The notes below the pieces were generated by a model, which was not told the DNA's origin, did not search any database, and worked only from the letters and a program-made list of their open reading frames with translations. A stretch of 64,000 bases of DNA from Ignavibacteriota bacterium (lineage in GTDB: Bacteria; Bacteroidota; Ignavibacteria; UBA10030; SZUA-254): positions 1-64,000 of the forward strand of contig JACREZ010000023.1 in assembly GCA_016212665.1 (NCBI GenBank). The letters run 5' to 3'. This document shows positions 3,138 through 57,203 of this stretch, piece by piece. Position 1 is the first letter of the stretch, and every line of letters begins with the position of its first letter. Position numbers and translations under genes: made by a program.

Positions 3138-3221
3138 AATTTCGGATTTCGGATTGCCAATTTCGGATTTATATTGATGATTGCAGATTTATGATTTCTG
3201 ATTTATGATTGCTGATTGTGA
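3137..3221. repeat. Word-like intergenic repeat (GATTTCGGATT / GATTTATGATT)
   Basis: The gap between the PD40 gene and the PQQ gene is made of near-repeats of GGATTTCGGATTGCCAATTTCGGATT followed, in shorter words, by GATTTATGATTTCTGATT. Much the same string, TTTCGGATTG...CCAATTTCGGATT, recurs at 38157-38192, and a shorter version lies inside mfd near 35216. No gene is seen in it. Confidence 0.7.
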
Positions 3222-3254
3222 TTGAATACTGAAATGGTTACACAAATTGATAAG

Positions 3255-32640: not shown

Positions 32641-35600
32641 TTACTTGCCAAGCACATCTGTAGCAAGAGATAGGTTTACAACGATTTCCCTTGTCTTCTC
32701 CACCGCCGCCTCAACCCGCGCCTGTTGCGTTGCCTGTTCTTTCAATCGTACAACGACTTTCAGTTCTTTCGCTTGTTGTTCCAATGTTGCCGCCCCTTTC
32801 GGCTGCTGTGAAATGTATGCAATCAATTTTTGAAACGGAGAAACGGTCTCGTTCAGGTTTCCATAAAACTCTGTGTCAGTTTCAGGAGGAAGTGTGAGCG
32901 AAAGAATATTTCCTTTCACTTCGAGTTTTTGAAATCGTGCCTGCGTTGCAAGCAATCGTAAGAGTACGGTGAGAAGCAAATGTTCGACCTCTTCGGGATA
33001 TTCTCCGAATCTGTCCTGAAGTTCATTTCGCATTTCGTTTAACTCCTGTTCATTCAACATCTTGGAGAGACGGCGATAGATATCAAGCCGCTCAGTGTCG
33101 GATTCAATGTAGAAATCGGGGATGAAGGCGTCAACGTCAATGTCCACAACTGATTCGATAGATGTGGGATATGTGATTTGAGATGTGGGTGTTTGGTCTT
33201 TGAATAATTCTTTGAATTCTTCCTGCTTGAGTTCTTCAACCGCTTCGCGGAGAATTTGTTCGTACATCTCGAAACCCATATCGGCGACAAAACCGGATTG
33301 TTCCGCGCCGAGCAGATTGCCCGCGCCGCGGATTTCCAAATCACGCATCGAAAGATTGAAGCCGGAACCGAGTTCATTAAATTCCTCAATTGCCTGTAAT
33401 CTCCGCAAGGTGGATTTCGGTACAACGCTCAACGGCGGCGTGAAGAGATACGCGTACGCCTGCACATTCGAGCGACCAACACGCCCGCGCAATTGATGCA
33501 ACTCCGCCATGCCAAATCTATCTGCACGATTGATGATAATCGTGTTCACGCTCGGAATATCCAATCCCGACTCGATGATTTTTGTACAGACCAGCACGTC
33601 ATATTTTTTCTCAAGAAAATCGAGCATTGTTTTCTCGAGTTCATGTCCTTCCATCTGTCCGTGCGCGACATGAACTTTCGCCTCAGGAATTTTCGACCGG
33701 AGTTGGTCGGCAATCGCATCAATATTTTCTACGCGGTCGTGAACAAAATAAACCTGCCCGCCGCGATACAATTCATGTATGATTGCTTCACGCGCAACAT
33801 TCCAATGCGTTTGTTTTCCATCCGCTCCGAACGGGACCATTTCCGTTTGAATCGGAAGACGATTACGCGGCGGCGTTGCAATGATTGAAAGGTCACGCGC
33901 ACCGAGAAGGGAAAACTGCAACGTGCGGGGAATCGGCGTTGCAGTCATTGAAAGCGTATCCACCGCGGCGCGAAATTGCCGCAACCGTTCCTTCGCCGAA
34001 ACACCGAAGCGATGCTCTTCATCAATAATAAGCAAGCCCAAATCTTTGAAGCCGATATCTTTCGAGAGCAACCGATGCGTTCCGATGATGACATCAACCG
34101 TTCCGCTTTTCATTCCTTCAACGATTGCCTTTTGTTCTCTCGTCGTTCGGAATCTGTTCAGATGCTCGACACGCACGGTGTATTTTGAAAGCCGGTCCAT
34201 GAATGTGTTGTAATGTTGCATGGCGAGAATGGTTGTGGGAACAAGAACGGCAACTTGCTTCCCGTCGCTCACAGCTTTGAATGCGGCACGCACAGCAACT
34301 TCCGTTTTCCCGAAGCCGACATCGCCGCAAACAAGCCGGTCCATCGGCGCAGTGTCTTCCATGTCGCGTTTCACTTCGAGTGTTGTGCGCGCTTGGTCGG
34401 GTGTGTCTTCATACATGAACGATGCTTCGAGTTCCTTCTGCCAATGCGAGTCGGAAGCGAACGAATATCCCTGTTCGAGTTTTCTCTTTGCGTAGAGTTT
34501 GATTAAATCACGCGCAATATCCTTGATGCGTTTCTTCGCTCTGCCGGTCACGCGTTCCCAATCGCCCGAACCGAGTTTGTTAAGTTTCGGAACGAATCCT
34601 TCCTTCGATGCATACTTCTGAACACGCATCAGCGAAGCAAGATTGACGTACATGACTCCGCCTTCATCGTACATCAATTTCATCACTTCCTGCTCAACTC
34701 CCGCAACTTTGATTTTGTTCAAGCCGATAAATTGCCCGATGCCGCGGTCAACATGAGTAACATAGTCGCCGCGCCGCAGTTGCTGTAATTCTTTCTGAGA
34801 AAATCCTTTGAAGCGTTTTCGTTTACCCGCTCCGCGACGTTTCAATCGTCCGAAAATTTCATGCTCTGTGAACACCGCAATCTTCGCCGGAGGGAAGATG
34901 AAGCCGGAGTGAAGAGTCTCTGCTACTATGTGATAGGTTACGGGTTTGGGGTTTGGGGTTTCGGGTTTACTGTTTACAGTTTCCTGTTTCCTGTTTTCTG
35001 TTTCAAGCCGTGCGCGTGGTACCTGTAACCCGTGACCCGTAACCTCTTCAGGTTTTGTAATCTCTTCCTCTAAAAGTTCACTGAGTCGTTCTGCTTCGTT
35101 CTTTGTGTCGCATGTAAGATAGACGTTGTAGCCATCGTTTGTTAGTCGGTTGATGGAATCAACGAGGAGATTGATGCTGCCGTTGAGAGAGGGCTGAGAT
35201 GTCGAATGAAATTCGATTTCGGATTTCGGATTCAGGATTGATGATTGAAAAGTGGTACTTTCAATTTTTGAGAATTGTTGTGCGAATGAAAGAACATCTG
35301 TATATGAAAAAAGATTTACTGCGCCTTCTTTGAACAGTTCTTCGATTTCTTTTTCGATGAACGCCGGTTCGTCGAGAATGATGACAGCGTTTTCTTCAAG
35401 ATAATCGAACAGGGAAGCGGAGGAAATTTGTTGAGATTGTTCATCAGAATCGCTGTTTTGCGAGATGAACGATGGAACAACGCTTGCCGAATCTAACTTG
35501 CGGATGGAGCGTTGAGAAAGAACATCAAACTCGCGGATAGATTCAATCGTGTTTCCCCAAAACTCGAAGCGAACAGGATTTTCACCGACGAACGAGAAGA

Positions 35601-36156
35601 CATCGAGGATTCCGCCACGCACGGCAATGTCGCCATAGTGTTCGACAAAATCTTTTTTCTCGAAACCAAGTTGCAACAGTTGTTCGATGAGTTGTTGAAA
35701 ATTGTATTCCTGCCCGACACTTAGTTCGATAGTTTGTTGTTGGAATTTTTCCGGCGGCGGAACAGGCTGAACAATCGAGTGCGGCGAGGCAACAACGATG
35801 AGTGTGTTTCCGGCGGAAAGTTTTTTGAGCGTTTCAATTTGTGCGATGGGCGAACTCATATCGAGAAGAGTCGCCGCGTGGGCAGGATGAAATCCGAAGA
35901 GACTGACTTGTGTTTCACCAAGCAACGTCGCACAATCATCGCGCAACTTCTCTGCTTTCTCCTCGTCCGATGCGATGAGAACTACTTGCGCTTTGCATTG
36001 TTCGAAAACCGTCGCCGCCACAAACGCAAGGAGAGAGCCGGAAACATTTCTCAATTGTAATTGTGTCCCCGCGGAAAACGATTGCAACTCGTGCTTCAGT
36101 TTGACAAACGGCTCGGAGGAAAGAACCTGCTGTCTAATGGTTTTCAAATCTTTCAT
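32641..36156 (-). CDS. mfd: Transcription-repair coupling factor Mfd
   Basis: About 1171 aa. UvrB-like N-terminus (residues ~1-330); RNA-polymerase-interacting domain with RGDYVTHVDRGIGQFIG; translocase domain with Walker A GDVGFGKTE, DEEH box, TATPIPRTL, and TRG motif IIINRADRFGMAELHQLRGRVGRS; C-terminal D7 region. Start at 36156 (MKDLKTIRQQ) is chosen; an ATG at 36189 is 11 codons upstream. Displaces stalled RNA polymerase and recruits UvrA. Two low-complexity insertions, residues ~371-407 and ~300-313, come from repeat DNA and lie before the conserved HSGFIFPPAKIAVFTEHE segment. Confidence 0.95.
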   Translation of the reverse strand: MKDLKTIRQQVLSSEPFVKLKHELQSFSAGTQLQLRNVSGSLLAFVAATVFEQCKAQVVLIASDEEKAEKLRDDCATLLGETQVSLFGFHPAHAATLLDMSSPIAQIETLKKLSAGNTLIVVASPHSIVQPVPPPEKFQQQTIELSVGQEYNFQQLIEQLLQLGFEKKDFVEHYGDIAVRGGILDVFSFVGENPVRFEFWGNTIESIREFDVLSQRSIRKLDSASVVPSFISQNSDSDEQSQQISSASLFDYLEENAVIILDEPAFIEKEIEELFKEGAVNLFSYTDVLSFAQQFSKIESTTFQSSILNPKSEIEFHSTSQPSLNGSINLLVDSINRLTNDGYNVYLTCDTKNEAERLSELLEEEITKPEEVTGHGLQVPRARLETENRKQETVNSKPETPNPKPVTYHIVAETLHSGFIFPPAKIAVFTEHEIFGRLKRRGAGKRKRFKGFSQKELQQLRRGDYVTHVDRGIGQFIGLNKIKVAGVEQEVMKLMYDEGGVMYVNLASLMRVQKYASKEGFVPKLNKLGSGDWERVTGRAKKRIKDIARDLIKLYAKRKLEQGYSFASDSHWQKELEASFMYEDTPDQARTTLEVKRDMEDTAPMDRLVCGDVGFGKTEVAVRAAFKAVSDGKQVAVLVPTTILAMQHYNTFMDRLSKYTVRVEHLNRFRTTREQKAIVEGMKSGTVDVIIGTHRLLSKDIGFKDLGLLIIDEEHRFGVSAKERLRQFRAAVDTLSMTATPIPRTLQFSLLGARDLSIIATPPRNRLPIQTEMVPFGADGKQTHWNVAREAIIHELYRGGQVYFVHDRVENIDAIADQLRSKIPEAKVHVAHGQMEGHELEKTMLDFLEKKYDVLVCTKIIESGLDIPSVNTIIINRADRFGMAELHQLRGRVGRSNVQAYAYLFTPPLSVVPKSTLRRLQAIEEFNELGSGFNLSMRDLEIRGAGNLLGAEQSGFVADMGFEMYEQILREAVEELKQEEFKELFKDQTPTSQITYPTSIESVVDIDVDAFIPDFYIESDTERLDIYRRLSKMLNEQELNEMRNELQDRFGEYPEEVEHLLLTVLLRLLATQARFQKLEVKGNILSLTLPPETDTEFYGNLNETVSPFQKLIAYISQQPKGAATLEQQAKELKVVVRLKEQATQQARVEAAVEKTREIVVNLSLATDVLGK
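34935..35045. repeat. In-frame repeat block with terminal inverted repeats inside mfd
   Basis: The 111-bp block (37 codons) has perfect 11-bp terminal inverted repeats, AGGTTACGGGT (34935-34945) and ACCCGTAACCT (35035-35045). The interior is made of GGGTTTGGGGTTT and TTTCCTGTTTCCTG words plus a GTGCGC-rich piece. In mfd it encodes the low-complexity segment containing ENRKQET and NSKPETPNPKPVT. Confidence 0.75.
35216..35260. repeat. Second word-like insertion inside mfd
   Basis: GATTTCGGATTTCGGATTC followed by AGGATTGATGATTG encodes SSILNPKSEIEF in a poorly conserved stretch of Mfd. The same GATTTCGGATT words fill the intergenic gaps at 3137-3221 and 38157-38192. Confidence 0.5.
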
Positions 36157-36333
36157 AATAATCGGATTGACGATGTACGATTGAAACATTGAATCATCTA
36201 CAAGTTCAAATCGTCAATGATTCAATCGTAAATAAAAACAGTAATCCCTTGCCGCCAAGAAATTTCAGGGCAGCAAAGGTCGGGTTGAAAATACGGATTT
36301 TGCACAATGAATCCGATTTTCAGAAAAACAATT

Positions 36334-44958: not shown

Positions 44959-47253
44959 CTATCTAAACAACAATGACTCTAAGTGATGACTAAACCACTC
45001 GCACCGTTTCATCCAATCTTCAACTCGTTTTCTTCCCGCTTCGTTTTGAACAAGCAACAATTCATCGGCAAAATATTTTTTTGCTTGTTGATAATCTTTT
45101 AACCGGAAATATGATTCGCCGAGTAACCGAAGTCTCGGTGATGCTAAATCAGGTGATAGGTTGTAGGTGATAGGCATGTCCGCCGTAAGCGGATGAATTA
45201 GTAGTTGAATAACTTCATCGTACTTTTGTAAGCGGAAAGAAATTTTTGCTTTCAGGTATTTCAACAAAGGACTTGAAAATTTTAAAAGCGCAGAATCAAT
45301 AAACACCATTGACAATTCCCCAGAAGCGGGACTTGTAAAATATGGTCGAAGGTAGTTTGCTAAGGAGGTATCGTTCAATGCTTCAATCCGGAGAAGTGCC
45401 GACTCGTTCGTCCGGTCAGACAAATCGTATTCGAGAATCTTGGTGAAGACGATTCTTGCAGTCGCAGTATCGCCTGTTTGCCAGAGAGAATTTCCGTACG
45501 TCGAAAGAACTCCCGCCACAGGAGATTTGCGTGATGAATCTTGAATTAGTTCTTTCATCAATTGAATTACTTTGGCATGGTTCGATGTGGCGTATTCAGT
45601 GGAGATAAGTCCCATGAATGCCTGCGTATTCCAACTCTGCTCGAGCGATAATTGAAAAAACTCCTTTGCTTGAACATGTTGTCTGTTGATGAGAGAACGG
45701 AAGCCTTCTTCATTGATTCGAGCAATTACTCTTGCACACTCTTTTGCGAAGATTGATTGTCGGCGAAAGAAATATTCGACATGATTTTTCCACGCATCGG
45801 GAACGGCGACGCGGTCAATCGTTAATTGCCATTCCTGAATTAACTCAGCGTATTCCTTCTTGTACACCGATTGAACCGAACTGCCGCCATAGAGTTGTTT
45901 GAAATTTTCAATCCCGTATTCATCAATTACAAATTTGCAGAACGAACCCATCAGCACGTAACTGAGACTCGATGCCTGAGACATGAAACCTTCAGGCGAA
46001 ATTAATTTTTCCGGGTGAGAAGCAATTTCAAACTTCTTGATTGCCGCCGCGTACTCGTGCAATGTTCTGTTTCCCCAATCGTCGTCAATCGCGGTGGCAA
46101 GTCCTTCCGTCAATCCAATATTATAGTGTGCTTTGATGATTGGCAATCCGAACTCTCCAGCGAGGACGTGAACGAGTTCGTGCTTCAACACTTCTTGCCA
46201 TGAATCTTTGTTGAGATGAATTTCCTTCCGCCATGGTTTGGAGATGTTTGTTGTTCCTGTTCCGATAAACTTACGTTTTGTTTCTGCATCGGGATAAATG
46301 TATGAAGTAATGATTCCGTTAAACTTCATGTTCAATGCTTCTTTATCCTGATACAATCGGAATTCGTGCTCAAGTCCGACAAATTCCCGTTCCTGCCGAG
46401 TAAACATTCCCGGCGCGTAGTGAATGATGAAGTGTTCTGTTTGATATGTTTCTGTCAATGTTCGTTGGATGGAAAATACGCTTGACTCAAATCCTATTGC
46501 GAAGCGGAAAATCCAAGCGATGAAAAGAACGAGTAACAAAAGGAGGAATGGGATGTACTTGAAATCCCATCGAAAAGCACGGGCTGCATTTTGTATTTTT
46601 TCTTTGAATGTTGAACCGAGCGTTGATGACGAAACTATCAACCACGAACCAAAACCGAAAACCAACAAACTAAAAACTGTGACGAGACGAAAAAGAACAA
46701 GCGTTGGCGTTATCGTCAGCACTTCATCGTACGAGAAGCCGGGGAAGTAGCCGTAAATGAAATTGTAAGAATAAATTGCGGGAGTGAAGTAACCGAGATA
46801 CAGGGGATGCAACAATGCAAAAGTCACAATGCAAAAGTAAAAAAGAATTGCCCGATGGAAGAGAACGGCGCACAATAATGCAAGTGAAATTGACCAGAAC
46901 GCTGTAATGACCGGAATCAACAGATAGAAGATGATGCCTTCTGAGTACGAACAGTTTTTTACAAGAACTATGTTCAGCGTTGCAACGACGAATGGAATTG
47001 CAAGTAGAACGGAAGTTTTATTTAGTGATTCTTTGAGTGTGTTACGGAAAATGTCGGTTGCTGAAAATTCTTGACCGGCATTGTATTGACGGAATATGTT
47101 TATCGTCATCGGTCCGGCAAGAAAAGGGATGACGAACGCAACTGCGGCGGAGAATTCGTAGCCGAGATAGTTGAAGAGTGGGAGTTGAATCAACCCGACA
47201 GAAAACAAAACCATGAAGATGAGAGAGAGGTTTTGTTTGAATTTCATTAGCAT
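44959..47253 (-). CDS. Membrane peptidase-MA protein with TPR tail
   Basis: 764 aa. About seven N-terminal membrane helices (residues ~10-250), then a peptidase-MA-like domain with KHELVHVLAGEFG (HExxH), a downstream Glu in LTEGLATAIDDDWG, and a TPR-rich C-terminus (about 520-760). The same motif pair occurs in the 297-3137 protein. ATG at 47253 or 47247 would serve. A repeat-derived peptide (PITYNLSP, residues ~685-701) lies between two TPR units. A broken tandem paralogue lies at 43925-44065. Role unknown; perhaps envelope proteolysis. Confidence 0.75.
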   Translation of the reverse strand: MLMKFKQNLSLIFMVLFSVGLIQLPLFNYLGYEFSAAVAFVIPFLAGPMTINIFRQYNAGQEFSATDIFRNTLKESLNKTSVLLAIPFVVATLNIVLVKNCSYSEGIIFYLLIPVITAFWSISLALLCAVLFHRAILFYFCIVTFALLHPLYLGYFTPAIYSYNFIYGYFPGFSYDEVLTITPTLVLFRLVTVFSLLVFGFGSWLIVSSSTLGSTFKEKIQNAARAFRWDFKYIPFLLLLLVLFIAWIFRFAIGFESSVFSIQRTLTETYQTEHFIIHYAPGMFTRQEREFVGLEHEFRLYQDKEALNMKFNGIITSYIYPDAETKRKFIGTGTTNISKPWRKEIHLNKDSWQEVLKHELVHVLAGEFGLPIIKAHYNIGLTEGLATAIDDDWGNRTLHEYAAAIKKFEIASHPEKLISPEGFMSQASSLSYVLMGSFCKFVIDEYGIENFKQLYGGSSVQSVYKKEYAELIQEWQLTIDRVAVPDAWKNHVEYFFRRQSIFAKECARVIARINEEGFRSLINRQHVQAKEFFQLSLEQSWNTQAFMGLISTEYATSNHAKVIQLMKELIQDSSRKSPVAGVLSTYGNSLWQTGDTATARIVFTKILEYDLSDRTNESALLRIEALNDTSLANYLRPYFTSPASGELSMVFIDSALLKFSSPLLKYLKAKISFRLQKYDEVIQLLIHPLTADMPITYNLSPDLASPRLRLLGESYFRLKDYQQAKKYFADELLLVQNEAGRKRVEDWMKRCEWFSHHLESLLFR
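45150..45200. repeat. In-frame word repeat in the peptidase-MA gene
   Basis: AGGTGATAGGTTGTAGGTGATAGG followed by TCCGCC-GTA-AGCGGA-type hairpin DNA encodes TADMPITYNLSPDL. The frameshifted paralogue fragment shows no such block at the equivalent distance from LLGESYF, although its upstream sequence is too decayed to be sure. Confidence 0.5.
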
Positions 47254-50218: not shown

Positions 50219-50225
50219 TGACGAA

Positions 50226-50697
50226 GTTTTTAGTTTTTGGTTATTAGTTGTAGTTACTTGTTGATAGTTATGTTCAGATGGCAACAGGGTTAGAAAATCT
50301 TTGGATTTATAAACTTGCGGAAGACCTCGAAGTGAAAGTCTATGAAGTAACCAAAGTATTTCCAAGAGATGAATTCTATCGCTCGGTTGACCAACTCAGG
50401 CGTTCGTCCTCATCGGTATCGGATAATCTTGCTGAACATTATCACAAAACTACAGTGAAAGAAAAGGTACGATTTCTGAATATTGCCAAAGGTGAGATGG
50501 AAGAGACTCGAAGAGGGATAATAAAATCTGCTCGCAAGAAATTCCTATCCGATAAACTTGCCTTGGAATTAGTTGAACAGTACACTGTCTTAATGAAAGG
50601 AACTACTTCGTACATCCGTTTTCTTGAGCTAAATAATATCGGCAAACGTCAGACTCCAACAACCAAAGACTGAAACCACAAACTACGAACTAAAAAC
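50226..50697. mobile_element. Four-helix-bundle cassette with 10-bp inverted ends
   Basis: GTTTTTAGTT (50226-50235) and AACTAAAAAC (50688-50697) are perfect inverted repeats around the four-helix-bundle gene. Both ends continue as looser words (TTTTTGGTTATTAG; CAACAACCAAAGACTG). The last eight codons of the gene come from the right arm. No transposase is seen. Confidence 0.5.
50278..50673 (+). CDS. Four-helix-bundle protein (23S rRNA IVS-protein family), copy 1
   Basis: 131 aa. LENLWIYKLAEDLEVKVYEVTKVFPRDEFYRSVDQLRRSSSSVSDNLAE is the signature of the S23/IVS family, and the C-terminal half is helical (KFLSDKLALELVEQYTVLMKGTTSYIRFLE). In Leptospira and Coxiella relatives are encoded within intervening sequences of 23S rRNA; the Avd protein of retroelements has the same fold. 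Molecular function unknown. The gene lies between beta-ureidopropionase and the aminotransferase, within inverted repeat arms. Confidence 0.85.
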   Translation: MATGLENLWIYKLAEDLEVKVYEVTKVFPRDEFYRSVDQLRRSSSSVSDNLAEHYHKTTVKEKVRFLNIAKGEMEETRRGIIKSARKKFLSDKLALELVEQYTVLMKGTTSYIRFLELNNIGKRQTPTTKD

Positions 50698-50708
50698 ATC
50701 ACAGATTT

Positions 50709-53824: not shown

Positions 53825-55303
53825 ATGCAAACTGTAAAAAACTACATTAACGGCAAATGGATTGAATCAACAAGCGGTAAAACCGTTCCGAATGTCAATC
53901 CGGCAAACACGAACGAAATACTTTGTAATACTCCTCTTTCTACTCGCGAAGAAGCGAAGGCGGCTATAGCGGCGGCGAAGGAAGCATTCCCGAAATGGAA
54001 AGCGACTCCCGCGCCGGTGCGAGGAAAGTTAATGTTCAAAGCAATGAATCTAATGCAGGAACAACTCGATGATGTTGCTACAGCATTGACGAAAGAAGAA
54101 GGAAAAATTCTCCGCGAAGCAAAAGGAGAAATTCAACGCGCGCTCAATATTATGGAGTTTACAGCCGGACATGGAAGACGATTGAATGGAGAGACGATTC
54201 CATCAGAGTTACCCAACACGTTTATCTATACAATTCGTCAGCCGATTGGTGTCGTTGGACTTGTCACGCCGTGGAATTTTCCTGTCGCCATTCCGATCTG
54301 GAAAATCGCGCCTGCGTTAGTTGCAGGAAACACCGTCGTTTTCAAACCTGCAACACTCACCCCACTTACTGCCGTGAAGATTTGTGAGATATTTGAAAAA
54401 ACCGGATTTCCTCCTGGAGTTCTCAACATGGTCATCGGCGGCGGCGGAACGGTCGGAGATGAAATTGTCAATCATCCCGATGTGCATGGAATTTCGTTCA
54501 CCGGCTCGAATGATGTCGGTTGTGCTTTATACTCACAGGCATCTCGTCGCGGCGTTCGTGTGCAATGTGAAATGGGTGGAAAGAATCCGCTTGTCATTAT
54601 GAGCGATGCAGATTTGCCGCTCGCTGTAGAAGGCGCTGTACTTGGCGCGTTTGGTTCAACGGGACAACGATGTACAGCGGCAAGCCGCGTGATTGTGGAA
54701 GAATCAATTGTTGAAAAGTTTACGGAAATGCTGCTGGCACGGTTAGAAAAATTCAAAGTCGGAGATGGAATGGATTCGACAGTTGATATGGGTCCATCGG
54801 TTGATGAAGGACAAATGAATACGGTTCTCAGTTACATCGAAATCGGTAAATCGGAAGGCGCGAAAATGCTCAAAGGAGGTAAGCGATTAACCGACGGAGC
54901 GTTCGGCAAGGGATTTTTTGTTGAGCCGACAATTTTTAGTAATGTTACTCCCGATATGAGAATCGCACAAGAAGAAATTTTCGGTCCCGTACTTTCCATC
55001 ATCAAAGCAAAAGATTTTGATGAAGCGCTTCACATTGCTAACAACGTGAAGTTCGGACTTTCCGCCTCTCTCTATTCAAATGATAATTCCAAAATCATGC
55101 GTTTTGTCGAACACTCTGAAGTCGGAAAAGTACACATCAATTCCTCAACCATCGGCGGCGAAGCGCAAGCGCCGTTCGGCGGAACGAAAGCCACCGGCAT
55201 CGGTCCCCGCGAGTGCGGAACGGAAGTCTTCAACTTCTACACAGAAGTGAAAACCGTGTATAATGATTTTACGGGGAAGAAGAGAGAGTCGAATATTTAC
55301 TGA
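53825..55303 (+). CDS. NAD(P)-dependent aldehyde dehydrogenase
   Basis: 492 aa. Catalytic Cys in GSTGQRCTAASR and general-base Glu in QCEMGGKNP are present; Gly-rich turn FTGSNDVG; Asn in VVTPWNF-type motif LVTPWNFPV. The Glu implies a hydrolytic enzyme, unlike CoA-acylating methylmalonate-semialdehyde dehydrogenases, which lack it. In context it could oxidise malonate semialdehyde, but related enzymes act on 2,5-dioxopentanoate, so the substrate is open. Confidence 0.85.
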   Translation: MQTVKNYINGKWIESTSGKTVPNVNPANTNEILCNTPLSTREEAKAAIAAAKEAFPKWKATPAPVRGKLMFKAMNLMQEQLDDVATALTKEEGKILREAKGEIQRALNIMEFTAGHGRRLNGETIPSELPNTFIYTIRQPIGVVGLVTPWNFPVAIPIWKIAPALVAGNTVVFKPATLTPLTAVKICEIFEKTGFPPGVLNMVIGGGGTVGDEIVNHPDVHGISFTGSNDVGCALYSQASRRGVRVQCEMGGKNPLVIMSDADLPLAVEGAVLGAFGSTGQRCTAASRVIVEESIVEKFTEMLLARLEKFKVGDGMDSTVDMGPSVDEGQMNTVLSYIEIGKSEGAKMLKGGKRLTDGAFGKGFFVEPTIFSNVTPDMRIAQEEIFGPVLSIIKAKDFDEALHIANNVKFGLSASLYSNDNSKIMRFVEHSEVGKVHINSSTIGGEAQAPFGGTKATGIGPRECGTEVFNFYTEVKTVYNDFTGKKRESNIY

Positions 55304-55325
55304 TGAATGGAGTTTCGAGTTTTGG

Positions 55326-55800
55326 GTTTTGAGTTTTGTGAAATATACTATGGAAATGCAGGGATATAAGAAATTGCAGATTTATCAAATGGCTCATCAA
55401 CTTGCTGTGAGGGTTCACACTATGAGTCTATCGCTACCTTCTTTTGAACGATATGAGGAAGGAAGTCAAGTGCGTCGCTCCTCCAAATCTGTTTCATCAA
55501 ATATTGTAGAGGGACATGCCCTGAGAAAGTATAAGAACGAATTTCTTCATTATCTTTTTCGAGCGTATGGTTCGTGCGAAGAAACGATAGAACATCTTGA
55601 ACTTCTTTTTGATACCAAGTCGTTGAAAGACGAACAAGTATTTAAGGGACTTCATCTTGAGTACAATAATCTTTGTGGAAAGATTCTTAGATTTATTCAA
55701 ATAGTTGAAAAAGAATTTGACACACCACAATTTTTGAAAGAGCCGTTGGTTGAATATTACGTTAGCGCGTCTGAAAATCATGTAGAACAAAACTCAAAAC
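55326..55800. mobile_element. Four-helix-bundle cassette with 14-bp inverted ends
   Basis: GTTTTGAGTTTTGT (55326-55339) and ACAAAACTCAAAAC (55787-55800) are perfect inverted repeats around copy 2 of the IVS-type gene. Outside them more such words follow (GAGTTTCGAGTTTTGGG; CACGAAACCCAAAACAC). The right arm encodes the protein tail EQNSKHETQN. No transposase is seen. Confidence 0.55.
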
Positions 55801-55841
55801 ACGAAACCCAAAACACTTCATCACATACTTTCAATTCTTGA
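55350..55841 (+). CDS. Four-helix-bundle protein (23S rRNA IVS-protein family), copy 2
   Basis: About 163 aa; the ATG at 55350 fits the family start (MEMQGYKKLQIYQMAHQLAVRVHTM), and the longer frame from 55263 reads the repeat arm and the preceding gene. Core motifs: PSFERYEEGSQVRRSSKSVSSNIVEGHALRK and FLHYLFRAYGSCEETIEHLELL. The ~20-residue tail is repeat-encoded. Unlike copy 1, it keeps the NIVEG(H/Y)-type motif closely. Molecular role unknown. Confidence 0.85.
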   Translation: MEMQGYKKLQIYQMAHQLAVRVHTMSLSLPSFERYEEGSQVRRSSKSVSSNIVEGHALRKYKNEFLHYLFRAYGSCEETIEHLELLFDTKSLKDEQVFKGLHLEYNNLCGKILRFIQIVEKEFDTPQFLKEPLVEYYVSASENHVEQNSKHETQNTSSHTFNS

Positions 55842-55847
55842 TCAACG

Positions 55848-57203
55848 ATGAATAACACAGTACCTAAACTATCTCCGAAACAATACGAAGAGAATTTCTC
55901 AGAACTTCATCCCGCGTTCACGCAGAATCAGGCAGTGGCGGAAGCGAACCGATGTTTGTATTGCTATGACTCGCCGTGCATGAAAGCATGTCCCACACAC
56001 ATTGACATTTCAACATTCATCAAAAAGATTGCAACAGGAAATGTCAAAGGTTCGGCAAAGACAATTCTTGAATCGAACTGGCTTGCCTTGACCTGCGCGA
56101 AAGCGTGTCCTGTTTCGGAGTTGTGTGAAGGTGCGTGCGTTTATAACGAACGTGGAGAGAAGCCGATTGAAATCGGTCGTTTGCAACGCTATGCAATGGA
56201 TAAATATTTTGAAATGGGAATGCCATCGTTGTTCAGACCCAAGCAGAAGAATGGAAAATCTGTCGGCGTGATTGGCGCGGGACCTGCCGGACTTGCATGT
56301 GCGGCAGAACTTGCATTGCTTGGTTACGATGTAACTATCTATGAAGGAAAAGAGCAGGCAGGCGGACTGAGTAATTTTGGAATCGCTCCGTACAAGATGA
56401 AGTTTCAGGACAGCCTGAATGAAATCAAACTGATTGAAAGTTTCGGCGTGAAAATTCAAACAGGAGTTTGGATAGGAAAAGATATGACGTTTGGTGAACT
56501 TGAGCAGAAACATGACGCGTTGTTCCTTGGAATGGGACTTGGGCTGGCAACCAAACTAAATATTCCGGGAGAAGACTTGAACGGCGTTGTTGATGCGAAT
56601 GAGTTTATCGAAAAAGTAACTCGCCGGGAATGGCATGCAGTTGATGTCGGGAAAAAAGTGGTTGTCATCGGCGGCGGGAACACAGCAATTGATGCGGCGA
56701 CGGAAGCAAAGCGTCTCGGCGCGAAACGGGTAACAATTCTCTATCGTCGCGGAGTCGAAGATATGCCTGCGTACAAATTCGAGCAGGAACTTGCAAAACT
56801 TGATGATGTTATCTTTCATTTTTTGGCGGCGCCGAAACGAATACTTGGCAACGCTTCCGTTGAGTCAGTAGAATGTTTGAGAATGAAACTCGGCAAACGC
56901 GAAAAAGGCGGAAAGAGAAAAGTTCAACAAATCGGCGGTTCTGAGTTTCAGTTGAAAGCGGACATGGTGATTAAAGCCGTCGGACAGAGTGTGAATATCA
57001 GTCACCTATTTAAAATAGCCGATTTGAAGACGCAAGATGGAAATGTCTGGGTCAACCCGAAGAACATGCAGACATCGAATCCGAAATATTTTGCTGGCGG
57101 CGATTGCATCAATGGCGGGAAAGAAGTTGTGAATGCGGCCGCTGATGGAAAGAAGGCGGCACATGGAATTGATACAATGCTCTTGAAAAAATCTGCAAAG
57201 TAG
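55848..57203 (+). CDS. preT: PreT-like NAD-dependent dihydropyrimidine dehydrogenase subunit
   Basis: 451 aa. N-terminal Cys-rich region CLYCYDSPCMKACPTHIDI and CAKACPVSELCEGACV (two 4Fe-4S sites), FAD-binding GVIGAGPAGLACAAEL, NAD-binding VVVIGGGNTAIDAATEAKRLGA, and C-terminal YFAGGDCINGGKEVVNAAADGK. This is the GltD-like subunit that feeds electrons to PreA (58131). Start has only ~7 bp after the IVS copy 2 stop. Confidence 0.88.
   Translation: MNNTVPKLSPKQYEENFSELHPAFTQNQAVAEANRCLYCYDSPCMKACPTHIDISTFIKKIATGNVKGSAKTILESNWLALTCAKACPVSELCEGACVYNERGEKPIEIGRLQRYAMDKYFEMGMPSLFRPKQKNGKSVGVIGAGPAGLACAAELALLGYDVTIYEGKEQAGGLSNFGIAPYKMKFQDSLNEIKLIESFGVKIQTGVWIGKDMTFGELEQKHDALFLGMGLGLATKLNIPGEDLNGVVDANEFIEKVTRREWHAVDVGKKVVVIGGGNTAIDAATEAKRLGAKRVTILYRRGVEDMPAYKFEQELAKLDDVIFHFLAAPKRILGNASVESVECLRMKLGKREKGGKRKVQQIGGSEFQLKADMVIKAVGQSVNISHLFKIADLKTQDGNVWVNPKNMQTSNPKYFAGGDCINGGKEVVNAAADGKKAAHGIDTMLLKKSAK

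Follow-up and report, generated by a model that had tools for sequence, protein, structure and literature searches.

Genes of the 23S rRNA IVP family between matched inverted arms of tandem 7-nt units in bacterial operons

Genes of the four-helix-bundle family PF05635 (23S_rRNA_IVP) are found in a widespread class of cassettes, in which the IVP gene lies between reverse-complement arms built of tandem 7 (or 8) nt units. At orthologous sites, as read from the sequences compared, the word that makes up the units has been replaced in both arms together.

The cassettes of the window

The window is the whole stretch of DNA that was analysed, 64,000 nt of contig JACREZ010000023.1 from an Ignavibacteriota bacterium (genome G000, 3.9 Mb). 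One cassette lies there in an operon-like run of metabolic genes:

53825..55303, + strand, upstream operon gene, aldehyde dehydrogenase (PF00171)
55310..55339, + strand, left arm, tandem 7-mers GAGTTTC GAGTTTT GGGTTTT GAGTTTT GT
55350..55841, + strand, four-helix-bundle gene, PF05635 / TIGR02436, 163 aa (ATG at 55350, stop codon ending at 55841)
55787..55816, + strand, right arm, inverted copy of the left arm, also coding the C-terminal tail NSKHETQN
55848..57203, + strand, downstream operon gene, Fer4_20/Pyr_redox_2 oxidoreductase (GltD/PreT-like)

The left arm starts 6 nt past the stop codon of the aldehyde dehydrogenase gene. The preliminary description had reported 14-bp inverted repeats around the gene and a tail, NSKHETQN, encoded by the right one; GTTTTGAGTTTTGT (55326-55339) and its exact reverse complement ACAAAACTCAAAAC (55787-55800) are both present, and the coding of the tail was confirmed. 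The full arms (55312-55339 and 55787-55814) are longer than the 14 bp first stated, being 28 nt with 86% complementarity. They consist of degenerate 7-mers, for which TRF gives a period of 7 at 55310-55338 and 55787-55816. Their match has a p value of 0.003 when the null is formed by pairing upstream flanks with the downstream flanks of other such loci.

PF05635 is the sole profile match in the cassette protein (E 1.8e-24). The protein scores above the curated cut-offs of both PF05635 (86.4 bits vs 33.8) and TIGR02436 (84.1 vs 24). Its AlphaFold model (pLDDT 88) has the predicted fold of the S23/IVP four-helix bundle (2GSC chain D, TMt 0.95, rmsd 1.1), with 2RLD also matched.

A second cassette is present in the window, with a weak arm match:

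50224..50262, + strand, left arm, degenerate AGTTTTT 7-mers (arm match score 10.5, p=0.13)
50278..50673, + strand, four-helix-bundle gene (TIGR02436 1.4e-22)
50658..50698, + strand, right arm, CAACCAAAGACTGAAACCACAAACTACGAACTAAAAACA, read from the sequence

The genome has 11 genes of this family. Among the other copies read in this genome, most likewise lie between inverted arms of 7- or 8-mers, made of different words such as GGTTAGT, TGGAGTA, TGCAGGG, TGAGCGG, GTTTCCT and AAAGTTC. On contig C16 of this genome (194540-197703, L136), an IVP cassette and two gene-free hairpins, all of the word AAAGTTA, occupy consecutive gaps among permease genes.

Anatomy and spread

The arms were assessed by comparing each upstream flank with the reverse complement of the downstream flank of its own locus and with those of other loci. 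In the order to which the window belongs (95 loci, 25 genomes), the median arm score is 15.5 within a locus vs 8.5 when swapped, and 48 of the 95 loci lie beyond the 99th percentile of the swapped null. A separate collection of 75 loci from many phyla gave medians of 18.0 vs 8.5, with 52 loci beyond the 95th percentile and 28 beyond the 99th. The phyla, taken from record titles, were Bacteroidota, Verrucomicrobiota, Acidobacteriota, Omnitrophota, Planctomycetota, Nitrospirota, Proteobacteria, Armatimonadota, Elusimicrobiota and others. An arm score of 14 was reached in 29 of the 37 loci of a further set, mostly from Flavobacterium. This anatomy recurs in the genome of the window, its order, Flavobacterium and over ten other phyla, with words that differ from locus to locus. 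It had been proposed that the family be collected and searched for inverted flanks and empty sites; the outcome is positive in more than ten phyla, with presence and absence at shared sites.

Autocorrelation of the flanks peaks at lags of 7, 14 and 21 (0.34-0.41 vs 0.25 in controls, which were stretches a few hundred bases away and were flat), and weakly at 8 and 15. The best period among 149 arms is 7 in 99 and 8 in 39, and their median length is 32 nt, with 4-5 tandem units. Arms are weak or decayed in approximately a quarter to a half of the loci, including the second cassette of the window. At one locus from Kiritimatiellae (L226) the IVP gene lies between far longer inverted repeats (~105 nt) that have internal palindromes and are unlike the 7-mer arms. 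No description of inverted 7-mer arms around IVP genes outside rRNA was found in the literature searched, which does not cover most subscription journals or preprints.

Different states at one site

At one site the cassettes can be present, absent, gene-free or replaced. In the gap before the oxidoreductase gene of the window locus, two relatives (the congener G001, and G005) have an orthologous IVP gene with GTTTCAG arms and another (G027) has an IVP gene with GATTCAG arms. This location is gene-free in the congener G002, where it carries a short inverted GATATGG hairpin, and other relatives have nothing. One Flavobacterium operon gap contains an IVP cassette in two species and a different IVP, with another word, in one species; in other species the gap has a gene-free inverted hairpin, a palindromic repeat of unrelated sequence, or little more. 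A conserved Flavobacterium palindromic repeat (GGAGCTAATCCTGCT...ATCAGGGCTAG) was seen at L330, L332-L336, L338, L339, L343, L345 and L348 in the gap that holds an IVP cassette in other species.

Both neighbours are co-directional with the IVP gene at 128 of the 144 loci with clear neighbours, and at only 2 of the 144 is the IVP gene antisense inside a co-directional pair. The background is 620 co-directional pairs among 787 neighbouring long ORF pairs (79%). Median distances are 4 nt from the upstream stop codon to the outer edge of the left arm and 7 nt from that of the right arm to the downstream start. The cassette is probably transcribed together with the operon. The IVP genes are under strong purifying selection, with dN/dS of 0.00-0.13 where estimable.

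Matching and joint change of the arms

The two arms of a locus agree at 85% in register, and a shift of one unit reduces this to 74%, the same value as between adjacent units within an arm. When the letters of each unit column are permuted among the units, the match score drops from 20.4 to 14.6. The in-register match and the loss on scrambling show that the arms are complementary copies and share more than a common word. The alternative that they are independent binding sites with only a word in common is disfavoured, since order and variant positions also match.

For orthologous pairs, defined by the same flanking genes, arm similarity within the locus exceeds that between species in 96 of 126, although these pairs are phylogenetically non-independent and a good match within the locus was the criterion for choosing the arm segments. 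Pairs below ~80% nucleotide identity mostly have within-locus values of 0.4-0.9, the same arm across species often giving 0.15-0.5; the window locus and its congener have 0.60 within the locus and 0.24 between. Close pairs follow ordinary descent: above ~85% identity an arm resembles its counterpart in the other species no less than its partner in the locus, so the concerted change is slow. At unrelated sites, arm words track protein similarity only above ~50% identity (Mantel r=0.29, p=0.001). The arms therefore travel with the gene yet turn over fast.

Gene-free arrays

Arrays of 7-mers without an IVP gene are also found in the window:

34935..35045, - strand, gene-free inverted 7-mer array in mfd (ORF 32641-36189), translated in frame as TENRKQETVNSKPETPNPKP
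35208..35248, - strand, second gene-free mfd array, GATTTCG 7-mers, in frame, without an inverted partner
3139..3225, strand not given, gene-free 7-mer array directly after an ORF, for which an inverted partner was not found

The peptide NSKPETPNPKP, previously noted in mfd, is indeed within this ORF, and the insert is in frame in a linker that is variable among relatives. A perfect 14-nt direct tandem repeat, ACAATGCAAAAGTC, is present at 46812-46838 of the window.

The genome contains 82 further 7-mer arrays in the 463 kb examined. Of these, 48 are intergenic, although ~90% of the sequence is coding, and only 13 are accompanied within 400 nt by an inverted partner, where 3 would be expected. 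Most are therefore single arrays and not gene-free cassettes; the idea that they are empty cassettes is rejected. A shared vocabulary had been taken to link the gene-bearing cassette with gene-free insertions. This stands in part: gene-free 7-mer arrays are abundant in the genome, but most are unpaired. Contigs C16 and C23 of this genome (window, L127-L146) have ~18 gene-free 7-mer arrays per 100 kb, enriched about six times between genes, and the word GATTTCG occurs several times among them.

In several relatives that carry 8-14 IVP genes, 40 kb of sequence away from these genes is free of arrays. The paired arms thus belong to the IVP cassette, loose arrays being a trait of some genomes. The number of IVP genes as a driver of gene-free arrays across genomes found weak support (Spearman 0.40, p=0.076) and is confounded by GC. 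The same 463 kb was searched for other genes enclosed by matched arms, with arm pairs allowed up to 4 kb apart; once short hairpins and IVP copies were set aside, the pairs were mostly cross-matches of neighbouring elements of one word.

Copies nested in methylase genes

In three genomes (G020, G006 and G019) the cassette is within Eco57I-type methylase ORFs of more than 1000 aa (L013, L014 and L035), inserted between the YYTP and D(I/P)ACGSG regions; L035 is at the corresponding position of a different methylase. The methylase frame is open across the whole insert (~150 residues in L013 and L014) and the IVP gene is read in another frame. Between L013 and L014, the IVP frame has dN 0.017 and dS 0.335, and the host frame of the insert has dN 0.186 and dS 0.047. 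With its frame of the insert more diverged than that of the IVP, the host seems to need merely an open frame. These are an unusual case of a gene within a gene, in a second frame. A second open frame is not a general trait of IVP genes, the +2 frame being free of stop codons in 3 of 164, all of which are the nested copies.

A proposed DNA-level process and its alternatives

The predicted RNA fold of the window locus pairs the arms despite a 447-nt loop (z=-2.1). If such a stem in the transcript were under selection, an excess of mismatches compatible with G-U pairing in the sense RNA would be predicted. Among 551 mismatches at 122 loci there are 118 of these in the sense and 126 in the antisense orientation, with no strand asymmetry. 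The transcript stem as the conserved entity is thus not supported. From these comparisons a DNA-level matching of the arms is favoured, and the RNA stem may have a second role.

It is possible that the arms form a fold-back hairpin. Where the region becomes single-stranded in replication or repair, one arm would template the correction of the other, and one-unit slippage would alter both length and word, the arms staying matched while the word drifts. The stem may also close around the IVP message in the transcript and set it apart from the host message, as RNase III does for the 23S rRNA IVS. The IVP pentamer, which is related to the protein Avd, probably binds its own arms, and this putative binding would explain the tie of paired arms to the IVP gene. 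No catalytic motif is known from the IVP protein. Arm-to-arm templating would have to span the 400-500 nt loop, and intermediates were not observed. As a whole, the explanation by an IVP cassette in operon gaps, with fold-back arms and autogenous IVP binding, falls a little short of being probable. A broader proposal is that this is a distinct class of cassette in many phyla, with ends rewritten jointly into new 7-8 nt words by a copying that involves the IVP, inserting in operon gaps or in coding genes whose frame stays open; in that full form it is rather doubtful.

The element could instead act only at the RNA level, as an IVS proper that has moved into mRNA, where a selected transcript stem is cut by RNase III and the insertion removed with the operon unharmed. 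In the Coxiella IVS, inverted repeats that form a 28-bp stem flank the same gene, and RNase III excises the element (PMC4990558). The sense orientation within operons and the pairing of the arms in the predicted fold are in line with this, as is the scarcity of C in the 5' arms, which limits self-folding. It is nevertheless an improbable account overall, as mismatches tolerable as G-U pairs in the transcript are not in excess. Slippage of 7-nt units as a generic property of the host, with IVP genes tolerating or preferring such spots and the pairing of the arms incidental, draws on the abundance of 7-nt tandem repeats in bacteria (summarised in PMC4679880) and on the density of gene-free arrays in the genome of the window. 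This is disfavoured and is considered very unlikely: genomes rich in IVP genes can lack arrays away from them, and gene-free arrays are mostly without an inverted partner, whereas the IVP arms match in register.

A mobile element with the arms as terminal inverted repeats, the word at both ends being recognised by the IVP or by a recombinase in trans, much as REP hairpins are by RAYT proteins, is also to be considered. RAYT/REP systems likewise have a gene with hairpin-forming repeats and dispersed gene-free repeats, although RAYT is a tyrosine transposase, unlike IVP, and the words of the IVP cassettes are not conserved between copies. Mobility fits the range of states at a single site, the words that follow protein similarity at unrelated sites, and the related cassettes of the same word in different taxa (L237 and L240). 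On the other side, the IVP lacks known catalytic motifs, and an HUH transposase with a catalytic Tyr, as in RAYT/REP and IS200/IS605, was not found in the cassette protein, in which only PF05635 matched. Near-identical copies at different sites of one genome were not found among the loci compared, there were no plasmid matches to the window protein and no phage matches to the L033 protein used as queries, many sites are old and vertically inherited, and a target-site duplication could not be defined. A mobile element of this kind is therefore regarded as unlikely, and the DNA-level matching of fold-back arms is preferred.

Relation to known systems

The 23S rRNA IVS of Leptospira and Coxiella resembles the cassettes in its protein family, 400-500 nt length, stem-capable inverted ends of ~28 bp and patchy distribution (PMC4990558). 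IVP ORFs also occur within 16S and 23S insertions of CPR bacteria (PMC11270868). The present cassettes differ in being situated in operon gaps or methylase genes and in having arms of tandem 7/8-mers, and their IVP gene is under purifying selection where the Coxiella ORF is decaying. The window copy lies between two protein genes, outside the 23S rRNA gene, and the 23S signature motif was not found in any IVP locus examined. The earlier suggestion of an IVS-type element outside rRNA is upheld by the same protein family between inverted ends of ~30 nt and by presence and absence at shared sites, and the cassette is supported as an IVS-like element outside rRNA.

The P6b stem of the cyanobacterial tRNA-Leu group I intron (PMC4476775; Nostoc) is likewise made of degenerate, complementary 7-nt repeats (TDNGATT or NNTGAGT), and replacement of the whole motif is known there. 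This hairpin is part of an intron, at a single locus, and has no protein gene, whereas the arms described here enclose a gene and are found at many loci, each with its own word. Tandem heptanucleotide repeats, such as TAACTGA arrays, share the period of 7 and the mostly intergenic location (PMC4679880); they are direct arrays of one word, in contrast to the arms, which are inverted, specific to each locus and associated with one gene family. Avd of the diversity-generating retroelements (DGR) has the same predicted fold as the window protein (4DWL, TMt 0.85), a family relation noted in PMC10053308. No reverse transcriptase lies beside the window gene, whose neighbours are metabolic enzymes.

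The function and origin of the 23S rRNA IVS have been called unclear (PMC4990558). With matched unit arms and a fixed orientation, as well as its gene, the cassette gains a definable anatomy. To our knowledge, IVS elements and their proteins have been recognised for more than 25 years, with neither a function nor a mode of movement assigned to them. The many natural word replacements make the binding, pairing and copying of the arms directly testable. The data suggest a common operon cassette, of which the copies in rRNA may be one special form.
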